In this document: positions 28,001 to 46,500 of the stretch, one piece after another | Layout of the letters: every line of letters starts with the position of its first letter | Position numbering within the stretch: the first letter of the stretch is position 1 | NCBI GenBank assembly: GCA_014905825.1 | Contig: JACGCN010000012.1 | Coordinates: forward strand, 1,364,001 to 1,428,000 | Origin: Lyophyllum atratum | Taxonomy: Eukaryota; Basidiomycota; Agaricomycetes; Agaricales; Lyophyllaceae | Direction of reading: 5' to 3' | DNA: 64,000 nt | The notes under the pieces: model-generated | What the model was told of the DNA's origin: nothing | The model's input: only the letters and a program-made list of their open reading frames with translations | Databases searched by the model: none | Position numbers and translations under genes: made by a program

Positions 28001-29293
28001 CGTAGGTCTCTTCAGCCCCTCTCCCTTCACCTGCCTCAATCAATGTCCATTTTGCGTCGAACATACAGGCCCTAAGTGACCTCTTCAAATCCATAACATG
28101 TCTTCCTAGTGACACGACACTCATCACCCTCCCTGCTGGGCCCCTTCTAGAGCTCGTATGCCTCGCGACGAGACGGCAGCTGACGGCGGCATGGTTGTCG
28201 CTTGCTGCTATTCTGATTGCACAGCTCAATCCACCACCACCGGTGCTGCTTAGCGGGCCGAACATCAAGCTGGGGCCGACGCCGGAGGCCGAATCTCTCG
28301 TGTCGAGTGCCTTGCCAATCTTGCTGGAGTGCTCCTTGAATATGATGGCGGCGCCTGGAGCTATGGAGGGCGTGAGTCATCGTTGGCTGCTGTCTCTAGG
28401 CGTGTGGATGACTGATATCACGCTTTCCTTGCAGAATCCGGATATAGTCCAGGAGTTCTTCGTTTGCATGGATAGGGTAGGTGATCCTTGACTTTCTGTT
28501 TTCGCGCATGACTAATGGTCCTGCATTGCAGGTAGCGCAAGATTTCACGCGGTCGTTCTTTACTCTACCACCTGGAGCCTTGGATGCGTTGGTGAATTGT
28601 GCGATCACAGCACTCTCACTTCAGGAGCGATATTCACTGGTGCAAGCCTGTAATTTCCTCGTATGTGGTCCCCTCAAACTGCTGTGGACCTATGATTTAC
28701 CCTGTTACTACGCAGTGCACTCTTATCCATCGAAGCTCCATAGATGACGCACTGGCTGCACAAAAGGAACAATTGCTGCAGGTTCATGGGAGACGGATAA
28801 TGAAAGCAGTTCTGGAAGGCTTTGCGAGTGTCGCGCCACGGAGGTTGGTTCTCCTTCCATCACCGAAAAAGTTGCCGTAACGAAATGTACGCGTTATAGC
28901 GTCGTGCCAAATCTTATAGAGATACTTGGGACGCTTTTGGGCAGAGGTGGTGGTGGGATTGGTGGTGGTGGTGGAGCAGGAGGTGCTATCGCTGCTGTTG
29001 GGATAAGAGAGATCCTCTTCGCTGTGAGTTTGCTGTTAGCCCGTTATGAATGATTACTCATCAGCACTAGGACGATTTCATCGCATCCAAAGCGACGCCG
29101 GAAGTGAAAGAGAAGTTCGTCACGGCTGTCATGAGGTGCATTGTTCTCGTGATGTCCTAGTTATACGCTGCTGACGTTTTGCTTGACTAGTTCACGTTCA
29201 CTCAAGAGAACCAGGGATGCGGCAAATCAGTTTACTCTCGTGGCGAGAGGTTTGGAAGGCTCTGGATTTGGATACGCCTCGGTCTCGATGTAG
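25097..29293 (+). CDS. Importin-13/Kap122-type nuclear transport receptor (importin-beta family)
   Basis: Predicted karyopherin of 1043 residues built of HEAT repeats, moving cargo through nuclear pores with Ran-GTP. Twenty exons close in frame: 25097-25156, 25216-25400, 25461-25575, 25628-25800, 25853-26652, 26708-26729, 26786-26821, 26877-26967, 27027-27183, 27240-27451, 27508-27591, 27646-27702, 27756-28001, 28069-28371, 28435-28476, 28532-28660, 28716-28843, 28900-29023, 29071-29135, 29191-29293. The N-terminus shows an importin-N-like pattern (AWGLVIPLLDHRDQNVQFFG, then HTAQVKIARDW). The middle has LINAYYVLRHDMLAYYVDDV, and the end FTLVARGLEGSGFGYA is typical of the IPO13/Kap111 group. 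Exon 6 is only 22 nt. A Gly-rich loop (GRGGGGIGGGGGAGG) near the C-terminus looks like a lineage insertion. TNPO3/Mtr10 is a less likely alternative. Confidence 0.83.
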
Positions 29294-30020
29294 AGCAGAA
29301 CTAGAGGCTGAGCTTGATGTACATATTATGAGGGCGCTACGCTATGTTGTACAATCAAATTGCATGCATGCGCCAAATGGGTATCCGGTAACTGATCGTT
29401 GCATTTCAGCCTCGTGAGTAGGTGAGTCCGGGTTTGTAGGCTGCGGATCAGAAGTAATGATTTATTTTTAGGGAACCGAGGACAACGTGGGCTACATACT
29501 TTTCACGTTCCCGCAGTAACGCGCACGTTCCCACAGATTGCATACGTTACCGTTCCCGCGTTACGCATGCGTAACATACCCGCCCTATGTAAAGCAGAAA
29601 TTGGCATCCCAGGCTTTAGATATCATAGATATTTTTCACGTACCGTGTGCTTCGTGTGTTGTTCAAAATGGGGGGTGAATACGAGCATGATAGGCTTGTG
29701 TTCGGTGACGGAAAATCTCTGGATGCATCACGTGATCGTCTGATCCGGGCACTCGGGCTGGCACAGATGCCTCAATAATACTCGGGGGGTCAACCACTAA
29801 GCTCTGAATTATGTACAATGCTTTTTTATGCATATTTGCGAACCTGTACATGTAAAAATCAGATACGTCCCGCATGTTGAAGCTACATAATTGTGAGCTG
29901 GGGCTACGTGCGAAGCCGGCTAGCCCAAGTGGTAGATAAGGCAGAGCATACCAGGGATCTACATCCGCAAAGTGGCTGACTCAGCTTCAGGCCTCTTTGG
30001 TGATGCGTGCGCGGCTTTGA
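29294..30020. other. Intergenic region left of the retrotransposon
   Basis: Contains the left GGAACG-type array (29507-29576). The stretch 29911-30020 appears to continue, after the inserted retrotransposon, at 35266. No gene supported. Confidence 0.5.
29507..29576 (-). repeat. GGAACG-motif array, left cluster
   Basis: Degenerate array in which CGTTCC (GGAACG on the minus strand) recurs at least three times within 50 bp together with CGTTAC/GTAACG variants. Similar arrays occur at 36.1 and 43.2 kb in the opposite orientation. It probably belongs to a mobile element terminus or a subterminal repeat. Confidence 0.6.
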
Positions 30021-30246
30021 TCGAGTTTAATCGAGTGATTACACAAGTCCAATGAGAATTCGCAAGCCTCTGCCTCACGCATCACGTGTACCCCTTGCCT
30101 AGGAAAGAGCGTTCCAGCGAGACACCCCCTAGGGACCTCGCTTCTACTGCAACCTCTTCCTAGGTAAGACCGGAATCATTAGAGACCTCGGTTCGTTCAC
30201 TGAACCTCTCTATAGATTTTGCAGAGGCTTGTGAGATTTTTCGAGT
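30021..30246 (+). repeat. Split direct repeat A1 (left terminus)
   Basis: 226 bp, starting and ending with TCGAGT. It appears identical to A2. It contains two short internal repeats of the type CCTAGG..AGACC and probably acts as the 5' leader and promoter of the element. Confidence 0.9.
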
Positions 30247-30319
30247 AATCACGAACACAGTTCATCGTCCTATTACCAGTCCTCACACAAGCCATCAAAG
30301 CTTTATCCGAGTGATCCCC

Positions 30320-31690
30320 ATGAGTTTAGAACCCAATGCGCCATCCCAAACAGCCGGATCATCCTCCAACGCTCCTGGATCGCCTCTCCAAGGAGGGCCT
30401 GACGGACCTTCCGGACCAGGGGGTACCCCTAATCCATCGAATTTGGGGGGAGGCGTCACTCTCAATGCCGAATTGCTCAAACGACTTGAAGAGAAAGTCG
30501 ACGAGTTCAGAAACCGGACCATCCAAAAGGGTCAGGCATCTTTCGACATCATCAGGCTCATTGAAGCTAGCAGAGAGACCCATGAAATCAAAAGGCAGGC
30601 CTACGACCAATACATTAATATCCTCGACAACATCTCGGCGCAGCTTGTTGAGCAGACTCGGCGAGGCGCCACTGCTGCACACGGATTGGGCGCACCCGGA
30701 GCCGGAGACAACGAGCCGGATAACAGAGGTGCTGGAGCCGGAGACCCTCCCAGGAACCGATCACGTACCAGATCGCGATCACCCAGAACGGTCAACCGAC
30801 ACATACTCAACCTTGCAAAGAAGTCAGCTGCTCGCCGACGACGAAGCAGATCAGTTTCTTCGGGCAGCTCGTCAGACCGCGGGGAATCAAGGTCCAAGAA
30901 ACGGAAAATCGACGTCGGGAAGCTCCCTTGGGCTAAAAAGGATGAGCTTGCTGAGCAGACTGGGGACCCAAACATCATCGAGACGCGTCGCCTCCTTGAA
31001 TACTATGGACGGGACCCCTCCGAAGTCAAGAGACACATCCGGCTCTCACCCACTGCTCCACCAGGCTTTCCCTCTGACCAATGGGAAAACATCATCAAAG
31101 GTAACGCGGTCAACCTCGACCTCGTCCACCTCTCCATCCATCACCTCTCAGCTCCTAAAGAGAGCGTTAGCCACATCGGAGATACTGAAATCAGGTTGGC
31201 AAGAGTCGCTCCACCGCGCCAGATCACCAAAGCAGGGCAGTGGGTCTCGGCCTGGAACGTTGCCATGCGCGCCGTACGATTCGCCTTCCCACATCGCGAG
31301 GACGAACTTCGTCAATACGCGGAATATATCCAGGACCTTTTCACAGCTCGAATCGAGTCCTCTCACCTCCGTGTCATCATGTTCGACAAAGCCGTCCGCG
31401 AAGAGGTCAGCGGAGGGCAACGTCTCTCTCTGCTCGATCCCCGGACCCATGCGAAGTTCGCTTCCTCCATCCTCATGCCAGACGGTGTCGAAGCCGATCA
31501 CGGATCCAGCAAATCCTCCGGCAAACGGTCACGTCCGTCGGGTTCCTCCTCCGACATCTGCAATCGTTTCGACAGCAAGAGGTCCTGCCCCTATAGCGCC
31601 AAGGAATGCCATTACGAACACGAGTGCAAGAGCTGTGGATCCAAAGCCCACGGGGCTACCGCGTGCAAAGGCCAAAAGGACGGGAATTGA
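30320..31690 (+). CDS. Ngaro ORF1: gag-like nucleic-acid-binding protein
   Basis: Predicted structural protein of 456 residues that would package element RNA. The N-terminus is Pro/Ser/Gly-rich (residues 1-55), followed by a helical segment (LLKRLEEKVDEFRNRTIQKG), an Arg/Ser-rich basic block (RNRSRTRSRSPR) and a globular middle. The C-terminus holds Cys-rich CNRFDSKRSC and a classic zinc knuckle CKSCGSKAHGATAC (C-X2-C-X4-H-X4-C). The ATG at 30320 is the first in-frame methionine. The frame is fully overlapped by the 5' extension of ORF2 in the +1 frame. Confidence 0.85.
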   Translation: MSLEPNAPSQTAGSSSNAPGSPLQGGPDGPSGPGGTPNPSNLGGGVTLNAELLKRLEEKVDEFRNRTIQKGQASFDIIRLIEASRETHEIKRQAYDQYINILDNISAQLVEQTRRGATAAHGLGAPGAGDNEPDNRGAGAGDPPRNRSRTRSRSPRTVNRHILNLAKKSAARRRRSRSVSSGSSSDRGESRSKKRKIDVGKLPWAKKDELAEQTGDPNIIETRRLLEYYGRDPSEVKRHIRLSPTAPPGFPSDQWENIIKGNAVNLDLVHLSIHHLSAPKESVSHIGDTEIRLARVAPPRQITKAGQWVSAWNVAMRAVRFAFPHREDELRQYAEYIQDLFTARIESSHLRVIMFDKAVREEVSGGQRLSLLDPRTHAKFASSILMPDGVEADHGSSKSSGKRSRPSGSSSDICNRFDSKRSCPYSAKECHYEHECKSCGSKAHGATACKGQKDGN

Positions 31691-33551
31691 GGCCGAGAGG
31701 GCGTTATCGAGAGAGGAGGTAGTACGGGGTATGTACCCGAGATTCATGCGGTACAACATATGGGACATCGACGCTCCCCTGTCACGCACGGCGGCTGACT
31801 GGACGGAGACAGCGAAGCCAGTACCTAGTCCCCCACAACGCGAGCTCAACAACGTCGTAGCCACACGTACTATAGCAGACAATCCGAGCCTTTTCAAGAT
31901 TGTCACCCCCATTAAAGTGGATGTCCTCGAAAGCATGCTCACCACGCATCCTAACCCCGCCTTTGTTAAGTCCGTATGCCGTTCCCTACGGGAAGGCTTC
32001 TGGCCGAACGCGAACACACACCCAGGGGTCTATCCTGACATTTTCGACGCATCACTCGGGATGCCAAAGGAACCAGACGAGGCCGACTTTCTAAGGTCCC
32101 AACGGGACATAGAGATTTCCAAAGGTCGTTTCTCCGAATCCTTTGGCACCGACTTACTGCCTGGAATGTACAGTTCCCCAATTCACGCCGTTCCCAAAGC
32201 TAAGGGCGACGGCCTCCGCATGGTAACGAATCAATCAGCGGGGGAGTTCTCCTTGAACTCTATGATCTTACACAAGGACATCGCAGGTATGCCGCTCGAC
32301 AACATGCGACACCTGGGCGAACGCTTACTGGCGATTCGCGCGACATCAGATCGTCCTTTGACTCTGTTCAAATCGGACGTGGCAGAGGCATATCGCCTCA
32401 TTCCTCTGCACCCCCTGTTTCAACTGAAACAGGTCAACACCATTGACGGTGCCCGACACATTGACCGCAACAACGCTTTTGGCGGCCGGTCCTCATTGAA
32501 CAACTGGGGCTCCGTGATGGACCTCATTTGCTGGATCGCTGAGCACGTCGAGAACATCCCTGACACTCTGGTCTTCAACGACGATGTGTTCGGCATCGCA
32601 GACGAGGGCGACATGGTCACATATAAACCATATGCCATGGACTTTCCAACACCACAGGCAGCGCTTCTCTCCCTATGGGATAGACTGGGGATACCTCATA
32701 AACAGACCAAGCAACTACATGGGTCACCCCTTGTGATCATCGGGATTCTGGTCGACGCTAATCTCATGACGATGACCCTCCCGACAGAATCTCGCGACGA
32801 ATTAGTTGCCGAAATGCGTGATTTTGCACGTCTACACAACGGGAAATCTCGCCATTTCTATTTGAAGCAGTGGCAGAAGCTGGCGGGCTGGATCAATTGG
32901 TCCCTGAATGTCTTCCCGCTTCTGCGTCCCTGCCTCAATAACATCTACCCGAAAATCACCCGCAATTTGGATAAGCCGAGGGCCAAGATCTATTGCAACA
33001 ACGCAATCCGCAGCGACCTCCTTTGGGCCGCAACTCTGATGGAGAACTCCACTGGAGTCCATCTTCTGAGCTCGAAGCGGTGGCAGACTAACGAATCTGA
33101 CTTCGTCATTTACTGCGACGCGTCGTTAACGGGCATGGCATTCTGGTACCCGGACAACAGCAATGGATATCAATCGGACATCCCGGCCGATACCCCGTCG
33201 GATCTCATATTCTATTTCGAGGCTCTCTGTGTTGCATGTGCCATTCTCAATGCCGTCGACGCCGCTCACTCCCCCTCGAAAATCCTAATCTACACTGATA
33301 ACTCAAATACCGTCGACATGTTCAATTCTTTTCACGCGAGCCCGATCTTCAATCCCTTGCTTCGCGCTGTGGCCGACGCGATGATCAAGAATGAACATCA
33401 GGTCCGCGTGCTTCACGTTCCTGGAAAGGAGAACACGATTGCGGATATGTTATCACGTGGGAGGTTTGGTGCCGCACTTGAATATGAACCGAGCCTTCTC
33501 ATTAACCCCTTCGAACCTCTTCCCGAACTACTTGGACCCCTGCAGAAATGA
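30336..33551 (+). CDS. Ngaro ORF2: reverse transcriptase / RNase H
   Basis: Open for 1071 codons in the +1 frame relative to ORF1. The recognisable protein begins only near the end of ORF1, with a possible ATG at 31731. Reverse transcriptase motifs: SPIHAVPKAKGDGLRMVTNQ, FKSDVAEAYRLIPLHP (first catalytic Asp), then VFNDDVFG in the YxDD box position. RNase H motifs: YCDASLTGMAFW (Asp), FEALCVACAI (Glu), IYTDNSNTVDMF (Asp) and NTIADMLSRG (Asp). The order and the absence of protease and DDE integrase fit DIRS-order elements. The protein may be made by frameshifting from ORF1 or by internal initiation. The first 450 codons may be open only by chance. The stop overlaps the start of the recombinase gene. 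Confidence 0.85.
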   Translation: MRHPKQPDHPPTLLDRLSKEGLTDLPDQGVPLIHRIWGEASLSMPNCSNDLKRKSTSSETGPSKRVRHLSTSSGSLKLAERPMKSKGRPTTNTLISSTTSRRSLLSRLGEAPLLHTDWAHPEPETTSRITEVLEPETLPGTDHVPDRDHPERSTDTYSTLQRSQLLADDEADQFLRAARQTAGNQGPRNGKSTSGSSLGLKRMSLLSRLGTQTSSRRVASLNTMDGTPPKSRDTSGSHPLLHQAFPLTNGKTSSKVTRSTSTSSTSPSITSQLLKRALATSEILKSGWQESLHRARSPKQGSGSRPGTLPCAPYDSPSHIARTNFVNTRNISRTFSQLESSPLTSVSSCSTKPSAKRSAEGNVSLCSIPGPMRSSLPPSSCQTVSKPITDPANPPANGHVRRVPPPTSAIVSTARGPAPIAPRNAITNTSARAVDPKPTGLPRAKAKRTGIEAERALSREEVVRGMYPRFMRYNIWDIDAPLSRTAADWTETAKPVPSPPQRELNNVVATRTIADNPSLFKIVTPIKVDVLESMLTTHPNPAFVKSVCRSLREGFWPNANTHPGVYPDIFDASLGMPKEPDEADFLRSQRDIEISKGRFSESFGTDLLPGMYSSPIHAVPKAKGDGLRMVTNQSAGEFSLNSMILHKDIAGMPLDNMRHLGERLLAIRATSDRPLTLFKSDVAEAYRLIPLHPLFQLKQVNTIDGARHIDRNNAFGGRSSLNNWGSVMDLICWIAEHVENIPDTLVFNDDVFGIADEGDMVTYKPYAMDFPTPQAALLSLWDRLGIPHKQTKQLHGSPLVIIGILVDANLMTMTLPTESRDELVAEMRDFARLHNGKSRHFYLKQWQKLAGWINWSLNVFPLLRPCLNNIYPKITRNLDKPRAKIYCNNAIRSDLLWAATLMENSTGVHLLSSKRWQTNESDFVIYCDASLTGMAFWYPDNSNGYQSDIPADTPSDLIFYFEALCVACAILNAVDAAHSPSKILIYTDNSNTVDMFNSFHASPIFNPLLRAVADAMIKNEHQVRVLHVPGKENTIADMLSRGRFGAALEYEPSLLINPFEPLPELLGPLQK

Positions 33552-34549
33552 TCAACTCAGGCGTCCCATCAAGGCAGCCCAACCGCGTGGCCTGGCCTCT
33601 CGAGCGACTTCTCAGGGAGCGGTCGCTCGCACTCGGGTGTGCCATCGACACATCTACCTCGAAAAATTACGGTTCTGCACTTAACTCCTATCTCAACTTT
33701 GTCCACTTGCACGAGCTCCCTGTCGAGCCCACCCCCGACACACTGTCTTTTTTCGTTGTCTACATGTCCCACCACATCCAACCGAGCTCGGTCACTACTT
33801 ACCTCTCAGGTATTGTAAATCAACTTGAACCCTATTTCCCCGATGTGCGCGCGACAAGGAGCGCCCCATTGGTAAAGAAGACCCTCGCCGGCTGTCTCCG
33901 TCTCCGAGGCGTCGCTACGACACGCAAACGCCCTTTGTCACGCGGCGACCTTTGCGAGGTCCTGCGGCATTACGCCGGGTCCACCGACCACGATGACCTC
34001 CTTTTTGTGACTCAGCTCCTCACGGGTTTCGACGCCCTGCTGCGTTTAGGGGAGTTGACTTACCCAGATGACAGAGCCTTGCACGACTTTAGGAAGGTCA
34101 CCAAGGTCACATCTGTCGTCGTCTCCCACGACCAATATGAGTTCTTGCTTCCTGGTAACAAGACTGATCACATATTCGAAGGCAACAAGATTATCGTGAG
34201 AGCGAATGCTCACGAGTCGAACCCCTACCCCCATTTCCTCGCCTATCTCCTCTCTCGCAACACTCGTTTCCCCCTATCACAGGAGCTCTGGTTGATGAAG
34301 GACGGTCGTGTTCCGACCCGGAGGTTTTTCATCAAGCGGCTTCGCGCCTTTTTTGACAAGAGCATCGCGGGACAGTCAATGCGGGCGGGCGGGGCGACGT
34401 TCCTGGCGGAAATGGGTGTTCCACCCCATCTCATTCAGGCTCGAGGCCGTTGGTCGTCAGATACCTTCCAGATTTACGTCAGAAAGAGCCCGGTTCTGAT
34501 ACAGGCCCTTCTGTTTGGAAGCCGGCGGGGAGCTCCCGTCGTGACTTGA
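33548..34549 (+). CDS. Ngaro ORF3: tyrosine recombinase
   Basis: Site-specific recombinase of 333 residues predicted to insert the circular DNA copy of the element. An N-terminal SAM-like DNA-binding part (SKNYGSALNSYLNFVHLH) precedes the catalytic domain. Visible active-site elements are Arg in LLRLGEL, QSMRAGGAT, GRWSSD and the nucleophile Tyr in FQIYVRKSP. The box-II His usual at the first place of HxxR is Gln here (QSMR). The start ATG at 33548 overlaps the ORF2 stop in the string ATGA, suggesting termination-reinitiation. No introns. Confidence 0.88.
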   Translation: MINSGVPSRQPNRVAWPLERLLRERSLALGCAIDTSTSKNYGSALNSYLNFVHLHELPVEPTPDTLSFFVVYMSHHIQPSSVTTYLSGIVNQLEPYFPDVRATRSAPLVKKTLAGCLRLRGVATTRKRPLSRGDLCEVLRHYAGSTDHDDLLFVTQLLTGFDALLRLGELTYPDDRALHDFRKVTKVTSVVVSHDQYEFLLPGNKTDHIFEGNKIIVRANAHESNPYPHFLAYLLSRNTRFPLSQELWLMKDGRVPTRRFFIKRLRAFFDKSIAGQSMRAGGATFLAEMGVPPHLIQARGRWSSDTFQIYVRKSPVLIQALLFGSRRGAPVVT

Positions 34550-34745
34550 TTTTCTTCTTATCATCTTGGACTCTAGAGCCGAACTTGGACTCGAACATCG
34601 ATACTTATATTACGGACTCTCTCAGAGCAGCACCACCTCGGACATTTCTTCGGACTAGTATCTCGTCTCACGCTACGTAGTACTCTTTTTCTTTTTTTTC
34701 TTTTCTTTCTCCTCCCATCGCTACGCTCATCTTTATAGGATTTTA

Positions 34746-34870
34746 GCCGTACCTAAAGTTCAGAAAAATACATAAGCCGGACCTGGACAGGCTCCCAGAG
34801 CTATCCCGTCGCACGGTCCGGTTTTCACCTATCCACTTGTGCCTCTGATCCACGCTTGCCCGATCATTGG
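34746..34870 (+). repeat. Split direct repeat B1
   Basis: 125 bp, starting GCCGTACCTAAAG and ending CGATCATTGG, immediately followed by A2. It appears identical to B2. Confidence 0.9.
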
Positions 34871-35096
34871 TCGAGTTTAATCGAGTGATTACACAAGTCC
34901 AATGAGAATTCGCAAGCCTCTGCCTCACGCATCACGTGTACCCCTTGCCTAGGAAAGAGCGTTCCAGCGAGACACCCCCTAGGGACCTCGCTTCTACTGC
35001 AACCTCTTCCTAGGTAAGACCGGAATCATTAGAGACCTCGGTTCGTTCACTGAACCTCTCTATAGATTTTGCAGAGGCTTGTGAGATTTTTCGAGT
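34871..35096 (+). repeat. Split direct repeat A2
   Basis: 226 bp, apparently identical to A1. It is followed by a 44-bp T/C-rich spacer (35097-35140) before B2. Confidence 0.9.
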
Positions 35097-35140
35097 CCCA
35101 CCCTCCACTTCCCTTTTTTGTGTTTTTCTTAAGTACACGT

Positions 35141-35265
35141 GCCGTACCTAAAGTTCAGAAAAATACATAAGCCGGACCTGGACAGGCTCCCAGAGCTATC
35201 CCGTCGCACGGTCCGGTTTTCACCTATCCACTTGTGCCTCTGATCCACGCTTGCCCGATCATTGG
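35141..35265 (+). repeat. Split direct repeat B2 (right terminus)
   Basis: 125 bp, apparently identical to B1. It ends ATTGG, after which host sequence AGGCATTG begins. Confidence 0.9.
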
Positions 35266-35343
35266 AGGCATTGTTCTCAGCCGCGCCATATCATCTCGTC
35301 GACCCACCCTCCCTCCTCTCGACGATCTGGAAATTAAATAAAT

Positions 35344-35620
35344 GATGTCATTGTTTGAGGGGTTTTCTTGCGGACCATTGCGTCTGAATTGCCCCTCATG
35401 TTTTCAGCCGTTGTCAGCATAGTAACGGACATCGATATATTACTGAACGGGGACACCCGATTATCATATCTCAGCTACTCTTCTGGTTGGATTGTTCCCA
35501 TCAATTTAAAAGCGAGTGCTTTTTCCTGCGGCGAGTCACGTTTTGCCGCAGAAAAAAGCACTCATGGAAATTTCACGTGACAGAAGAATATCATTTGACG
35601 ATGTCATTGAATGAGGGGCA
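35344..35620. repeat. Compact inverted-repeat cluster, possibly MITE-like
   Basis: Within 280 bp there is a 10-bp perfect inverted repeat (TGCCCCTCAT at 35390-35399 against ATGAGGGGCA at 35611-35620). There is also a direct repeat GATGTCATTGNNTGAGGGG at 35344-35362 and about 35600-35617. A strong hairpin lies between, with 18-bp arms (35515-35532 and 35545-35562, one mismatch, 12-nt loop). No coding frame. This could be a short non-autonomous DNA element or fused element ends. Confidence 0.6.
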
Positions 35621-36057
35621 GATTGCATCCATGTTGGACCAAAACTGCCCTCATATTTATTTGGCTCAAGCCATGACTTCACACTTGGAATAATTGATTG
35701 ATCCAGCACCCTATTATCTGACGGTCTGACACGTGCCGGAAACACTGGTAAACAACGCGCCAATGATTATGTTGGCACGAGGTCCGTGTTCGCGACGCGC
35801 CGACGCCGACGGAGACTCGAGCCTGGGACCCTATTGGGGTTGACTGCGGCCCACCATCCCTTTCGGTCTATCATACAAGGTATCCTTGAGCTCAGGTATG
35901 CTCTATATCTCTAAATAGTTCTTGGTACGCAGGTCCACATTTTGGTCTCCTACGTTGGTAAGCACGTTCTTTTAGAAATGAACTATATATTGACGTAAGA
36001 CATAGATCTACATTTGAGGGGCTATGGTTAGGAGGGGAATAAGGGAGCAAATTGCAT
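35621..36057. other. Interval between repeat cluster and GGAACG array
   Basis: No credible open frame or domain. Probably degenerate mobile-element sequence. Confidence 0.4.
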
Positions 36058-36233
36058 GTAACGTAGGAACGTAAGGCTGGAACGCATACGTTCCGAAGTG
36101 GAACGGATGGAACGTGAGTGTAAACTTGGAACGCGAGCGGAACGCGAGCGGAACGCAAGGCGTAACTTGTACGATATCTGGAACGTAAGTGGAACGCGAG
36201 CTGGTAACGCATCCGTTCCCAACGTTCCCAATC
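36058..36233 (+). repeat. GGAACG-motif array, middle cluster
   Basis: At least nine GGAACG units, separated by 4-20 bp of variable sequence, over 175 bp; the array ends in inverted CGTTCC units. It starts about 320 bp upstream of the transposase ATG and may be its promoter region or a transposase-binding subterminal array. Confidence 0.7.
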
Positions 36234-36375
36234 GAAGTACAAAGCTCACAACTTGCTGATGCCAGGTTCCTTACACGGAAGTGATCGAGAATGTCGATCA
36301 CCGTGAAAAAATTGAAGCACACCTGCAATTTTTTTACCTTTTCGCCTATTTACACGACTCCCTCAAGTGTGCATT

Positions 36376-39300
36376 ATGCTAAAGGTATTTATGACTCATT
36401 TGTTGGTCCTATGAGAACTCTATGTTCTTAATTGTGTATCATAGCGGGCTTTGCGACATGTTTACCGCTTATTTATCGGAGATTCCGACCGCGAACTTGC
36501 TGAGTCTTCGTCGGATAAGAGAAAAACGAAGAAAAGGCGCACGTCCCTCGATGGAGAGGACTTTCCGATGTTTGATGTCAATGGTACGTGTCTGATATAT
36601 CGATAACATATGTCATCGGCCTTCATTTGCTGGCAGGCAAGCTTATCGGCTTCAAACGCGTTCCGAAGACTGAGCTACCCCCCGCCCCCGCTCAAAGTCA
36701 ACCCAAATCGGTGGATGGTATGTGTTGGTGAATCAACGACATTTCTGCTTTTCTAACGGGTTCAACACCTCAAAGTGCCAGCTATCGACATCGAAAAGCT
36801 TTTAGAAGCCGTGGTTGATCGAGTGATTGCGTCCAAGCCGAACGGGGCTGAAGAACTCAAAGTTGACTCTGTCCCAGCACGCTCCGGCGGCTCCGCTGAG
36901 GTCATTGACGTAGATGCCCTTGCTCAGCGTGTTTTGGACGCTGTTTTAGCCAGGTCCAGTCAAAGCAACACACTTTATCCCTCTAAAAATGTCCTACCCT
37001 CCGCCACTGCGCTTCCACGTGTACCTCCTCTGCCTCCACCTCCGCCTACTTCCTCCGGCCCTTTCCCTCACGGTACCTCCTCCCTTGTCGGTATTGAAGC
37101 TCGGTTGAATTGGGATGGTCTGCCGGATGGTGATGTCACTCGGACTTTCTCACGAGAGGAACGTACCTTGATGGGGAGGCAGTTTCTCCTTCACTGGGCG
37201 CATACATCTGGTGGTGCTGGAAGGCGCGCAAAGGGAAAAAGCCGGGACTCACTGACGCTGGAGGATGGGAATGTTCTCAACTATAAGTGTCTCGGTATCT
37301 TGAACTGTGAAGACGAAACGTGCAACGTCTACACTCGACCACACACCGATAAGAATAGATTTCATCTGCAACTGGGGTCTCCTTGTCCTGGTACCGAGAA
37401 TCGACCCTGTGGTGACCCTCTAATTCACTTCCCATGTTCAGCTCACGCTTTGCTCATCGAATGGCGCCAAGGCTTTACATTCACACATCACGGCTTTCAT
37501 ATGCATAACCCTCCATCCCGTCCCTTACATCCCACTCCTGATGGTCGGCGCCGTTTTGAAGATACTGTTCTCGCACACCCTGACGCTGGTCCGAGGCAGC
37601 TCATTCAAGGTCCTCGTGGGATTGCTGGCCCTAGTCAATCTGTGGCTGACTTTGACCCCATCTACGAGAATGTCGATCGTGTGGGTCGTGATCGATCTCA
37701 CCTCAAGCAGAGTCTTGTTGGGGATGGAGGTGATGCCTTGATTGCAGGATTGGCCAATTTTGAGCGTCAGCATCCCGGGTTCATTATCAAGAAGGAGATT
37801 GGCGATATCACTGTTATATCAATGCAGACACCATTCATGGCTCGTCATCTCATCAACACCGAGTTCCACGAAGATCCTGTCAATGGGATTAACAATGATG
37901 CAGCTCATGGCTTCTGGATGACGAGAACAGCCTTGCTCATGGTCTCCTCAGTATTTTGCGAGGACCTTCGGTCGTGGATGCCTGGACTGTGGTCATACAC
38001 GAATGGCGCAAGTGCTAAACATTTTGAATTACACTTTTTAGCGCTGTTTGAAGGCATTGGTATTGAGGCAAATAAACAAGGCATAGGGATTAGTGACTTG
38101 CTGTTCATCTCGGTACGCCCTTCACTTCTCTATTTATTACCCATATCACTCAGACTTCAATTCTAGATGATGGACTTCAGTGATGCGGAAAAAAGAGGAT
38201 TCATTGAGGCGTTTGTGAAGTTCTGGCTTGCTCGCGTTGATGACTTCCGTTCCGAGGAAGAACTTCGAACAGCCGCATCAACACTTCTACGTGGCTGTAA
38301 GGAGCATTACCGCGCAAGTGTTACTCGTGTTGGGAGAAACGGAGCAGTTATTCCATCCGAACAGCAGGAGGACTTCAAACAGCGTGCTCTCGGGCTCCTG
38401 AGGGCTACCGATGTTGCGCAGTTTCGTAAAATGGCCCTTCTCCTTATTCACGACTTTCCTAATTGTCACAGCTGGATCATCTGGTGGCTACGAGAGGAAC
38501 ATGCGTCTATGTTATTCCAGAGTGTCTGGAGAATGGACCCGGCAATCTGGGCAAAAATTCCTGAGACCAACAACGCTCAGGAATCCTTACACTGGGTTAG
38601 CTATGCTCACTGTGGACGACTCCACAAGATGATTCCTGGACTCTTTCAACTCAAGCGGTTGGCCGAAACATTTGAAAGGCGGTGGATTGCTTCAGAGGGT
38701 GATTCACGACACTAACTAAATGTTGTTTCGAGCTAATTGACGCCCTTTCTCAGCCGGCTTGCGGACACGGTGGGGAAAGGGAAATCGTCCCCATGTACGC
38801 AAAGGCCCCGAGGACTTGGAACCCGAATCTAATAAGAAAGACGAGATGGGAAGACCACCAGATACAACCAAAGAACTTGTTGGGCGCAATGCGGCTGCAG
38901 TTCAACGTAAGCAAGAGGCTTCCGGTCAGTTGCTTGCTGCAGGTCTTGACGGCGCCATCCCTCCAAAACTTCGGAAGTCAACTAAGGTAAACAGGCTATT
39001 CCCCAGTTGGCGGTGGGACGATAACTCCTGTTTTCTTGATACCTCTCTGGAGCTCCTGTACACGGCGATAAGTCTTGATCAAGCGGGCTTTATTTCCACG
39101 TTTACAACACTCGACGCAAGGGTATACCGGATTTAAACTCCGACACCCCGGCCTGGTAGGTTAGTCCAAGCCTGGGCCTCGAAAAAAAAAAGTGGAGGTC
39201 ACCAAAAAAAACTCAAATTTGGGTGACCAGTGCCCACATATTGTACATTGACAGCTTGTAACCCTAACAATACTCTAAAGCCGGTTTTTGAATGCTTGGA

Positions 39301-42243
39301 GTCACGACGGGAGCTGGAGGTACAAAAGGATATCGCTGATCCGGACCTCCAAAATGGCATAACTCGTGCACGAGATGACTTACGCAAGTATCTTCACACC
39401 GCAAAATTTGTACGAGGGCTGGATACTCCGGAATCACTATGGGTTCGTTTATTTTATTGATATACAACACCTACTTATACCTATCAACTAGGGGTGGCTT
39501 TGGTCACTTGTCCGCAATGCAACTGCAATGGCGGATAAAGAAGGTGCTGATGGTGCTGAGGTATACAGCCCTGCATGTGCATACTTCGATACTTTGATGT
39601 CTGAAGTTCATCGATGCAGTGGCTGCAAGGAGACCCATGGGCAGCATATACAGATTATATCTCCCGCACGAAGGCAATGGGACCATGTGCTCTCCCAAAA
39701 TGACTTCCGAACATGCAATGGTCGAGTTGCGGACTGGTTTCGTAACTTCGTATCTGTGCATTCCACTTTTCAGCTCCAACCGAATGGCTGCTTCCGGCCA
39801 TCCTCCAAGTGCTCTGGGACTCGAAGCGATGTTCGCACCATCGTGATTTCGCTTCCTGTCATTCTTGTTCTCGAGATCGAGGATTTGGCATCCATCGAAC
39901 ACTCCTGGAATATCCCATCGACTCTTATTCCTGCCTCGAAAACCCTGGCCGATAGTGCTGGCCTTATTTATGATCTTGTTGGCCTCGCATTCCACAAACC
40001 CGCCACGTCCACCACTATTGGTCATTTCACGGCTCGCTTTTCTTCCCGAGATCGAACAGTTGTTCAGAACTATGACGGTCTAGCCCACGAAGGATTTGTA
40101 ACGGAAGAACGGAACGCAAAGTTCTCTACTCACGTGGCTGGGAGTCGAGTACCCATTCCATCTGCTTTCAAGATGTACTCGGTGGTCTACCATCTTCGAG
40201 GAGGACAAAGCGCCCAGAAGGAGTTTTTAGAGCTTCGCAGCCGTGAACTACAACGCAAACTGCATCTCAAAACAGACGCTACGGATTTCAATGAACCGAT
40301 ATCATTATCCTATCACGCCAAAGGCTACACCGAGGTTTCCCCCACTGACGCAACATGGAAGGTTCGCAAGAACCATCGTGAATACATCATTCCACTGCCT
40401 CTCGCGTCTAAAACCCCTCGCCAAAGGCGCCCAGCTCCAACACTCAAACCTACCAATCCCAAAAAGAAATCAGGTCGTCCATCTGCAGATGCTAGCGAGG
40501 AAGATGTAGACGAGCTTACCACGTCCTCGGAATTGGAGCTCGATTCCAAGTTTGAGGTTGAGTCAGAGGACACAGACCTCGATACAATGGCAAGATTAAA
40601 GCCTTTCCTGGAATCCGAGCCAGCCTCCCACCACCTACATCGTGAGGACAGCCGTGACAGCCATAGCACCACCAGTTCAGCACCTACTTCGCTCTTTGAA
40701 CTGGACTGCCGCTGTGGTCGTGTTGGGAATGGAAATCTTAGATATGAAGCTGCTGTCGAAGGAGAAGCCATCCAATGTGAGGAGTGCGGCCGATGGTCGC
40801 ATCAGGCATGCCAAAAGAATGGCCAGGCCTTTCTTCTGAAAGAAGACGAGCTGTTCCTTTGCCCTCAATGTAGCCTTGAAGATGCCCATACTCGGATCGA
40901 AACGCCCAAGCAAACAAAAAAGCGGTGAGTATGTTAACTTGCGACCATCGTACACAGTTAGCTCACTTTTTTAATGTCTAGCTATGCAGACCGATGTCGA
41001 GAATGGCGCGAGGAAGCAAAGAAACTCCTGAAAGATAGGATTAGGTGCGAGGTTTCACATAAGACTAGAGCTGACAAGCACTTACTATCATTTTATGAAA
41101 GGCCGGGGATTGGCGCACTAGCACGTAATGGAACGTACTGGTATCCTGTTCGTCTCATCATTCCTGTGGAGGGTAGCGTCGATAAATGGGGGGTGCGGTG
41201 GTGGAGAGGCTGTACCTTCGAACCAGGTTCACTCATTGAACCAGATTCAGTAACTTCGGTTCGTGTCGAGGGCCTGGTGGATGGACTCTGGGGAGATACA
41301 CGCGGTCGGCGCCGTATTCGTGTGAGTTTCCCAGTGCAACTGCAGTGAATAAAATGCTTACAAAGGGCTAGCTGGGGAAATGGATGCATGCCAATGAAGT
41401 CCCTAGCGAGGAAGACATACTATCAAACCCTGATAGTGTTGCATACACGGAAGACATCCACGAAGCCCTTGCACCATCTATCCCACTTCTGAAGAAATTG
41501 ATGAACTCGCCAACGTCTAATCTCAAGGATTGGGAGATACCTGCAAAAACCTGGCTCGAAAACGAAGGGGCAAAGACATATGAGGGGAAGCGGAAGATGA
41601 TACCTTATGTTGGAGATCTCACCATTCAGCAGCGAGCGAGAGTCCACAACTGGTTCCATATCCATGTCGGAGAGAGGAAGGCGGCAAATTGCTTGAAGTG
41701 GATGGGTCGGCTTCCTCTTGCACATGCTATTACCATTCTTCTTGCGTCTCGACCGGAAGAAGAGTTGGTACTAGAAGTACCTGATGACGAAGAAGAGGGA
41801 GCGAACCGGGTAGAAGCAGAGGAAGCACCCAGAAGCTTGATGGAACGCGCTTGGAGCTTTCAGACAAGCTTGCACACTGCCACAAGGCCGCCAAAAGATC
41901 CCGACTTGGAATGTTTGGAACGGCTAGAGGAACAGATGTTCGAGCAATCCCGCAGCGCAGGCGTGGCAGGGAATCATCAGTGGGGCCTAGACGCAGGTGA
42001 CCATCAAGGCCGGTGGAACCCTTATGAAAATGTCCCCGAGGATTGGAACTACGAGAACCGAAAGGAAAAGGACAATGAGTTAGAGGTAGGAAACAATATT
42101 TCGACGCTCGTTGAATGTGCCTGATGGATTGGATTTGACAGCGTGGACCTGAATATGTGGAGTTGCCGGTCAAGGAGCTGACACCGGATGTCAGGATTAG
42201 GCCGAAGCCTCGCCCGATTCGAAAACAAAAGAAAAATGCTTGA
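36376..42243 (+). CDS. MULE-like DDE transposase fused to a USP-type protease and a PHD finger
   Basis: Predicted nuclear protein of about 1738 residues. Exons: 36376-36384, 36445-36583, 36637-36717, 36776-38112, 38167-38698, 38754-39121, 39281-39442, 39492-40924, 40982-41321, 41372-42085, 42142-42243; all phases close. Domains in order: basic N-terminus (KRKTKKRRTS). A Cys/His zinc domain follows at about 244-316 (YKCLGILNCEDETC, FPCSAH, FTHHGFHMHN), like the WRKY-GCM1 fingers of MULE transposases. The DDE core has DAAHGFW (about 450), DFSDAEKRGF (about 525) and TNNAQES (about 660). The USP-type protease has the Cys box DDNSCFLDTSLELLY (about 790) and His box GHFTARF with a following YDGL (about 1050). 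The PHD finger (about 1281-1337) is C4HC3. A 400-residue tail is unassigned. The acceptor at 39280 (AAG) is the least certain junction. Domain calls are motif-based. Confidence 0.72.
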
Positions 42244-43191
42244 ATTACTGACAATCTGTACACAGTGATCACTTAATGTCATTTAATTAAATACAGTAAA
42301 CTTAAATAGGGCTGCATCTCCCCGAGGCACCACAAATCGAAATTGGCCCGTCTACAGTCCAACGGACGCGATGCAACGTGTTCGGCATGTTTGCGTTTTC
42401 GCCTAGGGAGGTATCGGCATCAGTGAATGCCCGGGATGAAAAAAACTTTCAAGGAGAACTCACGAGACAGGGCTACATACCCCAGATGTACCACAAACCA
42501 GAATGGGGCCTCCTGTACTCAAACGGCGTGATGGAACACATTCGGTGTATCTATTCCTTCGTCTGCGAAGGGTCCCCATCAGATAACATCGAGGATGAAG
42601 CAAAGCGAAGCTGAACTCACGAAAATATACCCAGAGAATGATGACGTCAGAGGGGCGCGCATCTGGCTCGAATGCGCGGTTGTCTGACGTCATACCAGAA
42701 GAGGCCTCGACGACTCGAGGTTGTCTTGCAGGGAGTAGGGACGCCACCAATGAGTACTGAGAAGACGGCGCGAGGGAGGAAGGTGGCGACAGCGTATTAG
42801 GTTACGAGCAGGCCCCTATGGATGTCAAGTTGAAAAAGAAATATTTATTCAGCAACTCCGAGGGGAGAAGGACAGGAAGTAGGACTTACTATATGTACCC
42901 TAGTGCCAGCTTAGACCTGCCGATGTCCCATCCTCTCAACTGTCCAACAGATGCATGAATTGAGGGGTCAATAAGTTCGTGAAGTCTGTAGAAGATGGAA
43001 GTCGGAGTCAAAGCAACATGGACCGTCGCACATTCCCACGTACCATTCTCGTGACTCGGATGCCCGAGGCACTGAGACTCGGTCAGAGAGCGATACGCTG
43101 CTTACGCGCTACAACCACCAGCCATTTACTATCAATAGCAATCGGCCAAATAGCTTTTTCCTGATGAAAATACATCTGTAATCGAACATCT
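42244..43191. other. 3' flank of the transposase gene
   Basis: About 950 bp without a credible gene. It contains a pair of CRE-type palindromes (42641-42693) described separately, and leads into the right GGAACG array. Confidence 0.5.
42641..42693. promoter_or_regulatory. Inverted pair of TGACGTCA palindromes
   Basis: ATGACGTCAGA at 42641-42651 and TCTGACGTCAT at 42683-42693 form an 11-bp inverted repeat. Each arm holds the full TGACGTCA site bound by CREB/ATF-type bZIP proteins. There is no obvious adjacent promoter, so function is uncertain; the arms could equally be short element termini. Confidence 0.45.
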
Positions 43192-43312
43192 GGAACGCAT
43201 CAGGAACGTGGAACGGGAACTTGGAACGGGAACGGGAACGTAGTCTGGGAACGGGAACGTAGCCTGGGAACGCGTAACGCGTGCCGGAACGCAAAAAGCT
43301 GGAACCCCGGAC
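43192..43312 (+). repeat. GGAACG-motif array, right cluster
   Basis: At least nine GGAACG/GGGAACG units in 120 bp, same strand orientation as the 36.1-kb array and opposite to the 29.5-kb array. It ends about 250 bp before the ABC transporter start. Confidence 0.7.
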
Positions 43313-43558
43313 AACGTAGATCAGTGGATGGCAAAATGACCCTTATGCAGACTATCTTCCCTGAAGTCTGCGGCATGCGGGCATTGATGCCCGTGACAAG
43401 CCTTCTCAAGCGACATCTTTCCGCAGCAGCGCAGCAGAGGCTTGGCAGACACTCGGTTAACGCGTTGGTTCAAAACAAGCACTTCGAAGTGTTTGACATT
43501 CAAGGCCACAAGTTCACGCGACGCGTTCAGACTTAAGTCGATTCTAATCTTCGCGACA

Positions 43559-46500
43559 ATGAGCCTCCTTAGGCAACAATTTCTGGCCCTCTTTCGGAAG
43601 AATTGGATCGTTCTTCTGAAACACCCTTTCGTAGGCACCGATTTTCTTTCGCGTTCCTAGTTTTCTTTGGCCGCTCATTCAAACTGTTAGTTGAATCTTT
43701 TGAGATGCCTTATATTTCCCCTCGTGCTTGGGGTCCTCCTGGCTTTGTCTCCTCGCTTCTTCAGCCGTCGACAAATTGTAAGGTTTCCCAGTCTAGGCTT
43801 GGTCTAATACTGACTCATATTTTGCTTCAAGTTCGGTCTTGGTTCTGCTATTCCCGTTTCTAGCATGAAAGACGTTTTTAGTGGCGAGCGTGCTCTTGTC
43901 TGGGTCGATTCGACTAACCAGACGGGGTTCTTGAGGTCGAAGGATATCATGTCCCATGTCACGAAAGGTTTCAACGGTGGTCAGTTAGGAGCGGTAAGAC
44001 AGCTGAACAACGCAAGCGACATATTCGAAGCCTGTCCTCCTAAGAAATGCTTTGCCTCTGTCACTTTCGAGGCTTTTCCAGCGTCACCCGACGATACCGT
44101 CAAGCCAGTCAACTATACGATTAGATCAGCATTTGGTGTTGGTTCATACTTCGTAGACATTCAAAATCACAATCTGTGGGCCGAAGAGACGCTTCTTCCT
44201 CTTCAACTAGCAATCGACCAGGTCTGTTCTGTGATCACTTTTCAGTGGGAACTCTGAGGTTGACTATCTTCGTAGGCCATCGTCGAACTCACGACTGGAG
44301 TGCAGATACCGACCCCCCTAGAGTGGCCCTTTACCGCTCCAACCACCGACGACTACGCGAAGAACAACAGACAAGGTCAGGTCATTTGTGAAAGATACCT
44401 TTTTTTGACTGCTAAAAAAGCCCTGCTCAGCTCTCATTACGTTGATCAAGAGCTTCCTTATATTTGCCTTGTAAGCCTTGGCTATCCTTGTTGAGATTTT
44501 TTTTTGACCACCGGTAAAGCATGCTCGCCTATGTTGGAGTTGGGTTTCATGTAGGTCGCCTCGCCATATATTTTGTTCGGGGTTGGTTCTAAGTCTTTTC
44601 AAAGCTTGCTGGCGCCGTTGCATTTGAACGCGCGACCCACCTTACGTCCCATATGAAAGCTATGGGACTTTCTGATTGGGCTGGAATTCTGTCAGTTCGC
44701 TTTGAACATAAGCACCCCGCAATTTACCGACTAACACGAAATTTAGGTCATGGCATGCCAGTTTATCTGTCGCCTACCTCCCCGGATGGATTGCCGTTTC
44801 CCTCCTCTGGTCCTACTTGATATTTACAGAGACCAGCCCAGCGCTAATCTTCCTCGTACACTTGCTCACCGGGCTGGGACTAGCTAGTTGGTCATTTTTC
44901 ATAGCTGTTGTATTTGGACGGAGCCCCCCTCTATCGTCGCTCTCGTTGGTGGGCTTGGCTTTGCAGTAATTGCCGGCAGTGCTTTCAAGACGATACAGAC
45001 AGCGACTGCTGCGGTTCTCTCCATACTTTTCCCGCCCATGTTCTATGTCTTCGCTATCCGATCAGTCTGTGGTTATGAGCTGTCAGGACTTGGCGCAAAT
45101 GCAATTAAACGTGATCCGATAGATGGATTGTTGTTGTTACCACTCCTGTTCATGGGAATTGTAAGTCGTGAGGCTACATCCAACAACAGACACTGACGAC
45201 GCATTACTAGGTCAACATTTTTCTGTGGCCATACCTTTCGGTGGTTTTGGAACGGTTTTTGTATGATGCGTACCCGCCTCAAGGGTTTTGGTCATATTTC
45301 ACGAAGCGCGTCAAGCCAACCTCCAGGCCTATTCCTGGACATGCTGCCATCTCGATTAATCATCTGAAAAAGACTTACCGCTCATTTCATGTCCGGAATA
45401 TGAAGATACAACACGTGGATGCAATCTCTGACCTGAGCATGAATATACCCAAGGGCGAGGTATTCGCTCTCCTCGGTCCCAATGGGTATGTCCATCCTGT
45501 TGTCCCTTTTGCGCGAGGCTGAACCACAACACTTGACAGGGCCGGTAAATCAACGATCCTCGACATTTTGGGAGGACTGAGTCGACCGACAAGCGGCTCT
45601 ATCACTTTCGAAGGGGGCTTGGCGCGTCCTCCTCACGGAATCATTGGCATCGTTCCTCAGAAGAACATACTTTTTTCCGAATTGACATGCCTGCAGACCC
45701 TGGAGCTGTGGAGGGACATCAAACGATCAGCGTCTTCGCCGGCTGACGAAGACCTCGAACAACTTCTGCGCGATTGCGACCTCGGCGATAGAATTCACTC
45801 CAATTCTGGGAAGTTGTCAGGTGGTCAGAAGCGAAAACTTCAGCTGGCAATTGGCCTCGTGGGAGGCTCTAAAAGTGATGCTCTTTCCTTACCGCTTATG
45901 ATGTGGACGCTAACGTTCAAACATGTATCTAGTCGTTCTCGTCGACGAATGCACCTCTGGTGTTGACCCAATAAGCCGGCGTGCTTTATGGAAGACTCTT
46001 ACGTCTCATCGAACTGAACGTACGATCGTCTTGACCACCCATGTTCGTACTCCTCTTTGCATATTTTATCGACTGATTGATCCTCTTGCGTAGTTCTTGG
46101 ACGAAGCTGACCTGTTGGCGGATGAAATAGTTGTCCTTGGCTCCCATGGAAAACTAATAGCTGAAGGGTCTCCAGTCGCCTTGAAATCTAACCTCGGCGA
46201 GGGATACACTATCCAGGTCACCTTCAGTCCTCACGCAACTGATCTATACACACTCCAACACGATCTCCTCGCAAAAATTCGTCGCTTCGCTCCCGAGGTT
46301 TACGTGACCTCGTCCTCGTCTCCTAAAATTTTCTATCATCTAAAGACGAAAGACCTTGTTGTAGTAGGGAACATTCTCCAGATCATTGAAGCCCAACAAG
46401 TTGATCTATGTATCAATACATGTGACGTCTCTGGAACTTCGATTGAAGAAATATTCTTGGACCTCATGGACGGGGAGAAGCGCCTGAAGGATGGCGGGGA

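Follow-up and report, generated by a model that had tools for sequence, protein, structure and literature searches.

Does a single gene in an agaric fungus join a transposase to a PHD finger and to a domain resembling a ubiquitin protease, and is that gene carried by an element that moves? The question arises in a 64,000-nucleotide stretch of the Lyophyllum atratum genome (assembly GCA_014905825.1, contig JACGCN010000012.1, positions 1,364,001 to 1,428,000; hereafter the window, in whose own numbering all coordinates are given), where an initial annotation had described one 11-exon frame of about 1738 codons. We find this gene inside a larger inserted element, and our best explanation, to which we give a probability of about 0.85, is an autonomous-type transposon of the Mutator superfamily (a Mutator-like element, MULE) whose transposase is fused to USP-like and PHD domains. 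The frame is directly observed: when the window is spliced as that annotation proposed, 1738 codons are read through GT...AG joins with zero internal stops. The zinc domain, the DDE core, the USP-type Cys/His pair and the PHD finger are all located in the translation at the positions claimed for them. The gene and its principal domains are arranged as follows.

36376..42243, plus strand: transposase gene, 11 exons, 1738 codons, frame opened by splicing
36376-36384, 36445-36583, 36637-36717, 36776-38112, 38167-38698, 38754-39121: exons 1-6
39281-39442, 39492-40924, 40982-41321, 41372-42085, 42142-42243: exons 7-11
37288..37506, plus strand: GCM/WRKY-like zinc domain, aa 248-320 (C248, C254, C259, C280, C288, C297, H318, H320)
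37897..38583, plus strand: DDE core with D451 (NDAAHG), D525 (MDFSDAE), C566-x2-H569 and E661 (TNNAQES); the intron 38113-38166 lies inside
38754..39116, plus strand: exon 6 up to a repeat, with the USP-like Cys box NSCFLDTSLELLY; Cys792 at 39029
39281..40427, plus strand: remainder of the USP-like domain, formed by exon 7 and the beginning of exon 8, with His1054 at 40023 and Asp1071 at 40074
40707..40871, plus strand: C4HC3 PHD finger, aa 1282-1336

The coordinates 36376..42243, originally given for the whole unit, hold for the gene, whereas the mobile element is larger and starts well to its left. Its parts are listed here.

29489..43308, plus strand: the inserted element in full (13,820 bp, its nested retroelement counted), defined by the flanking duplication and the empty site
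29480..29488: left target-site duplication GGACAACGT
43309..43317: right target-site duplication GGACAACGT
29489..29892, plus strand: 5' terminus and first subterminal part, starting GGGCTACATACTTTTCACG
35701..36375, plus strand: 5' subterminal part with a GGAACG array (9 GGAACG, 3 CGTTCC)
42244..43308, plus strand: 3' part with a GGAACG array (10 copies) and the 3' terminus ...GGAACGCAAAAAGCTGGAACCCC

The mobility of the element is likewise directly observed. It is bordered on both sides by the identical 9-bp sequence GGACAACGT, and it truly moved, because contig C81 retains the empty landing site (C81:555322-555330), where both flanks meet without any element, their overlap being precisely these 9 bp, reading gaaccga-GGACAACGT-agatcag with a single GGACAACGT. 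The C81 flanks are 95% and 98% identical to those of the window over about 1 kb each, and we read C81 as the probable homologous haplotype of the window contig; since the element is absent from it, the insertion is not fixed. As seen with contigs C24 and C81, the assembly seems to contain two haplotypes, several loci occurring as near-identical pairs, and the empty site is visible for this reason. A domesticated host gene in place of a transposon is extremely improbable here: the finding of this zinc-DDE exon, at 41% identity or above, at only five places in the genome (a lower bound) can be put on that side, but target duplications, terminal inverted repeats, derivatives and the empty site all oppose it, and the last of these led us to reject it for the window copy. 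The window copy has short terminal inverted repeats that match imperfectly, at 16 of 24 positions. GGAACG/CGTTCC motifs are dense beside the ends, with 12 in 675 bp on the 5' side and 10 in 1065 bp on the 3' side. For comparison, the gene has 7 in its 5,868 bp, and the DNA to either side of the element has 17 in 29,479 bp and 14 in 20,683 bp.

Shorter derivatives of the element are also present in the genome, in which our searches covered 64.8 Mb in 151 contigs, so that the copy counts are lower bounds. Eight of them (about 1.4-1.8 kb) carry both end regions of the window element, and their starts are 83-87% identical to 29489-29892. Seven start with GGGCTACATACTTTTTACG and end with GGAACGCAAAAAGCTGG-ACCCC, while L039 is without the first bases. 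Perfect 9-bp duplications flank six of the eight, L034 agrees at 8 of 9 positions, and no target duplication was found for L039. Two derivatives at different target sites, L032 and L033, share 99.3% identity over 1825 columns, which indicates recent movement. Four of the five derivatives compared (L034, L035, L036 and L039) retain the stretch ATGCTAAAGGT along with the first splice site, and in L038 it is altered; exons 1-3 gave no protein homologue in database searches.

Longer relatives were found as well. A search with the zinc-DDE exon returned six places, namely the window, contigs C65, C119, C64 and C141 (41-44% identity) and C57 (29%), and a search with the USP/PHD exon returned eight matches at five loci, these being the window and the same contigs except C57. 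The copy count that had been suggested as a check thus gave four relatives and one distant place in the same genome. Spliced alignments of C64, C119 and C65 place the zinc-DDE part, the protease-like region and the PHD finger in the same order, and the C141 relative keeps the zinc domain, the DDE core and the Cys box, with the protease and PHD parts as remnants. The C64 copy is compact (6,922 bp), and C64 and C65 each possess their own perfect 9-bp duplication, the sole exact pair in the scan; their termini start with GGGCAC-AGTTTTTTACCGTGGCA, nearly the same as in the window. For C119 and C141 the scan for terminal inverted repeats and target-site duplications gave no exact 9-bp pair, only one-mismatch pairs with poor inverted repeats (2 and 3). 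Long nested insertions are found in the C119 and C65 relatives, and a stop lies within the zinc-DDE half of C65. In total, the C64, C119 and C65 models have 1-6 stops and 0-2 frameshifts, several of them in apparent unspliced introns. Across all ten pairs of five copies (465-467 codons), the proportion of nonsynonymous differences (pN) is 0.18-0.40 and that of synonymous differences (pS) 0.75-0.83. In our reading, the zinc-DDE half has been under strong purifying selection. Because pS is saturated, the ratio of nonsynonymous to synonymous rates (dN/dS) that had been proposed alongside the copy count is not obtainable. The distant place at C57:756163-756963 (L014, L030) has similar zinc and DDE parts, and no USP-like motif occurs in the plus-strand open reading frames of at least 70 aa in L030.

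To which superfamily does the transposase belong? MULEs are marked by a C-x2-H between the second D and the E of the catalytic core, by terminal inverted repeats and by a target duplication of 8-11 bp, typically 9. In the present family D-A-A-H, the second D, C-x2-H and E are preserved in all five copies, and a 9-bp duplication is found in the window with its empty site, in C64 and C65 and in the six derivatives mentioned above. The 9-bp duplication, the inverted repeats and the D-A-A-H / D / C-x2-H / TNN-x-x-E series therefore fit MULEs, as far as sequence features can indicate. A profile of six MULEs from the same genome, into which some sequence pieces were entered approximately, gave a score of 27.0 (P 0.0058), whereas none of 60 column shuffles exceeded 20.4 and the reversed profile reached 18.0. 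Of 11 family members, 7 match the Pfam GCM profile (best E 1.1e-4); the window copy is not among them. Some results weigh against the assignment: the six-MULE alignment puts the first D and TNN in register, but not the second D and the final E; the Pfam MULE profile PF10551 has no match to the family; the MULE L007, when compared singly, gave no match; and the AlphaFold model of the zinc-DDE part reached a mean predicted local distance difference test (pLDDT) score of 46.4. A 2OG-Fe(II) oxygenase match on the zinc domain (E 0.027-0.048) lay below the cut-off and was rejected. For the Zisupton group, which includes KDZ, a target duplication of 8 bp is given in the part of the source used here (PMC12730594), whereas it is 9 bp in our element.

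The joining of transposase, USP-like domain and PHD finger in one gene is seen in other species, too. Database homologues with a species name are all from Agaricales, namely Laccaria amethystina (P0008), Collybia nuda (P0009) and Agrocybe pediades (P0010), and further ones without a species name (P0001-P0007, P0011 and P0012) include two metagenome proteins across the joins. In P0010 and P0012 the end of the DDE core is continuous with the USP Cys box, and in P0011 the USP His box is continuous with the PHD finger; because these proteins span the joins, the fusion is a feature of the family, as the same-genome relatives also illustrate. A wrong fusion of two genes, one for a transposase and one for a USP-PHD protein, split near 38.7 or 39.2 kb, is accordingly very improbable. 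The intron 38699-38753 does separate the two halves in the window, but P0010 and P0012 cross this junction within one protein, which led us to reject the split, and all four relatives keep a GRPPDT/GRPPNT linker at the same place along with the domain order as far as it is preserved.

The middle domain of this fusion is, by its motifs and profiles, very probably USP-like. A profile of its His-box half (seven family sequences) aligns with the host USP, USP4 and USP15 with an hhalign score of 36.5 (P 8e-5) and with the catalytic His and Asp in register, while none of 100 shuffles exceeded 18.7 and the reversed profile scored 13.6. Pfam UCH aligns to the C64 copy over positions 7-231 of 254 (E 0.013). 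The Cys motif NSC(F/W)(L/I)DT(S/A)L(Q/E)LL(Y/F) occurs in all four rows covering that position, and the motif order of Cys box, His box and Asp is found in the four rows covering all three. His and Asp are conserved in five of five rows, at 32-36% identity to the window copy.

Several observations speak against a USP assignment and lower its strength. Pfam UCH was matched in one of nine sequences (some of them partial), with 15.5 bits against a gathering score of 23.9, and not in the window copy; a genome-wide search with PF00443, allowing E values up to 10, gave 62 places that include no copy of the family; and PDB sequence searches with the USP alignment found no USP. An ungapped scan for the Cys box was not significant, the right place being best in two of four copies and 81-905 of 1000 shuffles equalling it. 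The AlphaFold model of the exon 8 part has a mean pLDDT of 45.6, and Foldseek gave 0 matches to it at E <= 0.001 (the best 50 of 284 weak ones were viewed); PAN2, a pseudo-ubiquitin-hydrolase at rank 36 with E 2.1, was not taken as evidence. The USP-type Cys/His motifs named in the initial annotation are thus present, while its USP assignment is weaker than it was stated to be, with Pfam UCH below cut-off; both structure predictions, which it had suggested as a check, are poor, and neither confirms a USP fold or a DDE core. The weak profile scores, together with incompletely conserved finger cysteines, would fit a non-catalytic or differently specific papain-fold module (a ubiquitin-/SUMO-like binder or a pseudo-peptidase) that serves complex assembly only. 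We consider such a module unlikely, since a pseudo-enzyme would be expected to lose one of the catalytic residues, which at this level of divergence are retained in every row that covers them. For the USP-like domain that we prefer, we infer both the catalytic activity and the substrate.

The window copy carries an insertion in the exon that encodes this domain:

39117..39271, plus strand: dispersed short repeat in the USP-coding exon, 3' border approximate, making up most of the proposed intron 39122-39280

This segment has nine other genomic matches at 81-96% identity (L051-L059), with CAAGGG at the start of all ten copies, and the relatives are uninterrupted at the same position. Moreover, the residues NTLK just after the repeat are cut out by the proposed intron, yet they align with P0008 and the relatives. 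In our reading of these alignments the join 39122-39280 is not an ancestral intron but an inserted repeat in which GT and AG are available by chance. The repeat begins with CAAGGGTATACCGG, and most of its other copies extend further 3' than the window copy. It had been argued that perfectly closing exon phases speak against decay; this argument fails, because good phases do not exclude decay when one of the introns consists largely of a repeat inserted into the protease exon. The repeat may be spliced out, or it may be damage, and its presence in the USP exon of the window copy counts against our best explanation. We give even odds to a decaying window copy, whose protease exon was disrupted by the short repeat and whose open frame reflects a chance choice of GT and AG. 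The lack of the repeat in the relatives at this site and the removal of the aligned NTLK agree with decay, but the 1738 codons contain no other stop or frameshift, and the absence of the element from C81 indicates an unfixed insertion.

The PHD finger matches Pfam PHD with 25.0 bits for the C-terminal part of the window protein, against a gathering score of 24 (23.6 on the exon alone), and has matches in all four copies scanned. Its best PDB profile match is Bye1 (7.4e-6), beside 32 other names, most of which are PHD proteins by our reading and one of which, NblA, is not. The finger is predicted to bind histones. It is followed by one more region shared by the copies:

40982..42243, plus strand: conserved C-terminal region (GALARxGxxWYPVRL...VRWWR; exons 9-11), from an alignment of 4 copies

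This region is conserved at 45-47% identity and has no supported Pfam match; by eye only, the motif is Tudor/PWWP-like.

Part of the length of the element in the window is due to other repeats inside it, of which the largest is this one:

29893..35700, plus strand: nested tyrosine-recombinase retroelement, borders approximate, foreign to the original transposon

The derivatives join both sides of this segment directly, and its open reading frames are gag-like, reverse-transcriptase-like and tyrosine-recombinase-like. We take it to be a DIRS/Ngaro-like element. Its split direct repeat (34746-34870 and 35141-35265) is 100% identical between the two copies, which suggests that it is young. In the 3' part, about 840 bp (42306-43143) match another repeat family (L041-L045) and perhaps represent another nested repeat; four copies at C141:1.70-1.73 Mb share 89% identity with this part, and one at C61 shares 76%. 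Rfam at gathering scores gave no match in 29000-44000 of the window, and the zinc-DDE exon gave none in the plasmid collection.

How might such a protein work? In the mechanism we propose, the PHD finger would tether the transposase complex to chromatin and the USP-like domain would then strip ubiquitin from the transposase, or from chromatin or repair proteins at the donor or target site; these first two steps are what we infer from the domains. Deubiquitination would leave the complex neither degraded nor silenced. The zinc domain would recognise the subterminal GGAACG arrays, which it probably binds, and the DDE core would cut and rejoin the DNA, leaving the 9-bp target duplications. Taken as a whole, the mechanism is tentative and, in our estimate, somewhat doubtful. 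Less likely still is a broader view, in which a distinct agaric Mutator lineage would carry a deubiquitinase and a histone reader in its transposase as a self-contained chromatin-editing protein, one able to locate a chromatin state, remove ubiquitin there (e.g. from histones, silencing factors or repair factors) and transpose.

SUMO/ubiquitin proteases and PHD fingers are already known from transposons, and no MULE combining a USP-like domain with a PHD finger was found in our searches of open-licence PubMed Central. Ulp1 proteases have the catalytic order His-Asp-Cys and act on SUMO. In the excerpts of the papers compared below, Mutator elements of plants, hydra and lancelet carry Ulp1 protease domains and thereby also join a Mutator transposon to a cysteine protease of the ubiquitin-like world (cited in PMC2836005), whereas here the order is the USP-type Cys-His-Asp, the protease is C-terminal to the DDE core and the host is a basidiomycete. 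Ginger1 has a DDE protein with a C-terminal OTU or Ulp1 domain, and Ginger1-9_HM has both Ulp1 and PHD, but its transposase is of the Gypsy-integrase type with a GPY/F motif and it occurs in animals (PMC2836005). The Trichomonas protein XP_001314237.1 combines a DNA transposase with a USP-class Peptidase C19, but it belongs to the transposase_11 family of a protist and no PHD finger is mentioned for it in that excerpt, and the same source suggests a role in repair (PMC2836005). By description only, Rehavkus is similar in being MULE-related and in having a PHD finger, 9-bp duplications and a minisatellite before the 3' terminal inverted repeat; it differs in its distribution (arthropods and annelids), in inverted repeats of 26-400 bp and in that the passage used mentions no protease (PMC6446971), while an OTU domain is reported in a cnidarian MuDR (PMC6446971).

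Transposon-borne deubiquitinase domains are further known as VTD and OTU domains in Helitrons, where activity has been measured; many of the active VTD deubiquitinases are found in these elements, and the authors speculate that they aid against limits on transposon inheritance. Helitrons, however, are rolling-circle elements, and VTD is another class of deubiquitinase (PMC9741609, in the portion used). Fungal DNA transposons with TET/JBP genes (KDZ and others) resemble our element in carrying an enzyme that may undo silencing, but theirs is a dioxygenase gene, and the main text of that source contains none of the words 'protease', 'peptidase', 'PHD' and 'ubiquitin' (PMC12730594).

Proteases of the ubiquitin/SUMO world thus recur in unrelated transposons (PMC2836005, PMC9741609). 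The present family adds a USP-class example to Mutator elements, which these excerpts report with Ulp1 or OTU. Because the protease is fused to the transposase, the element is present or absent between contigs and a compact relative exists on C64, the role of the protease can be tested through one cysteine. The interest lies less in any new principle than in a single protein whose workings are open to test. Its fusion with a protease suggests that elements of this kind control the ubiquitin tags carried by chromatin or by the elements themselves.

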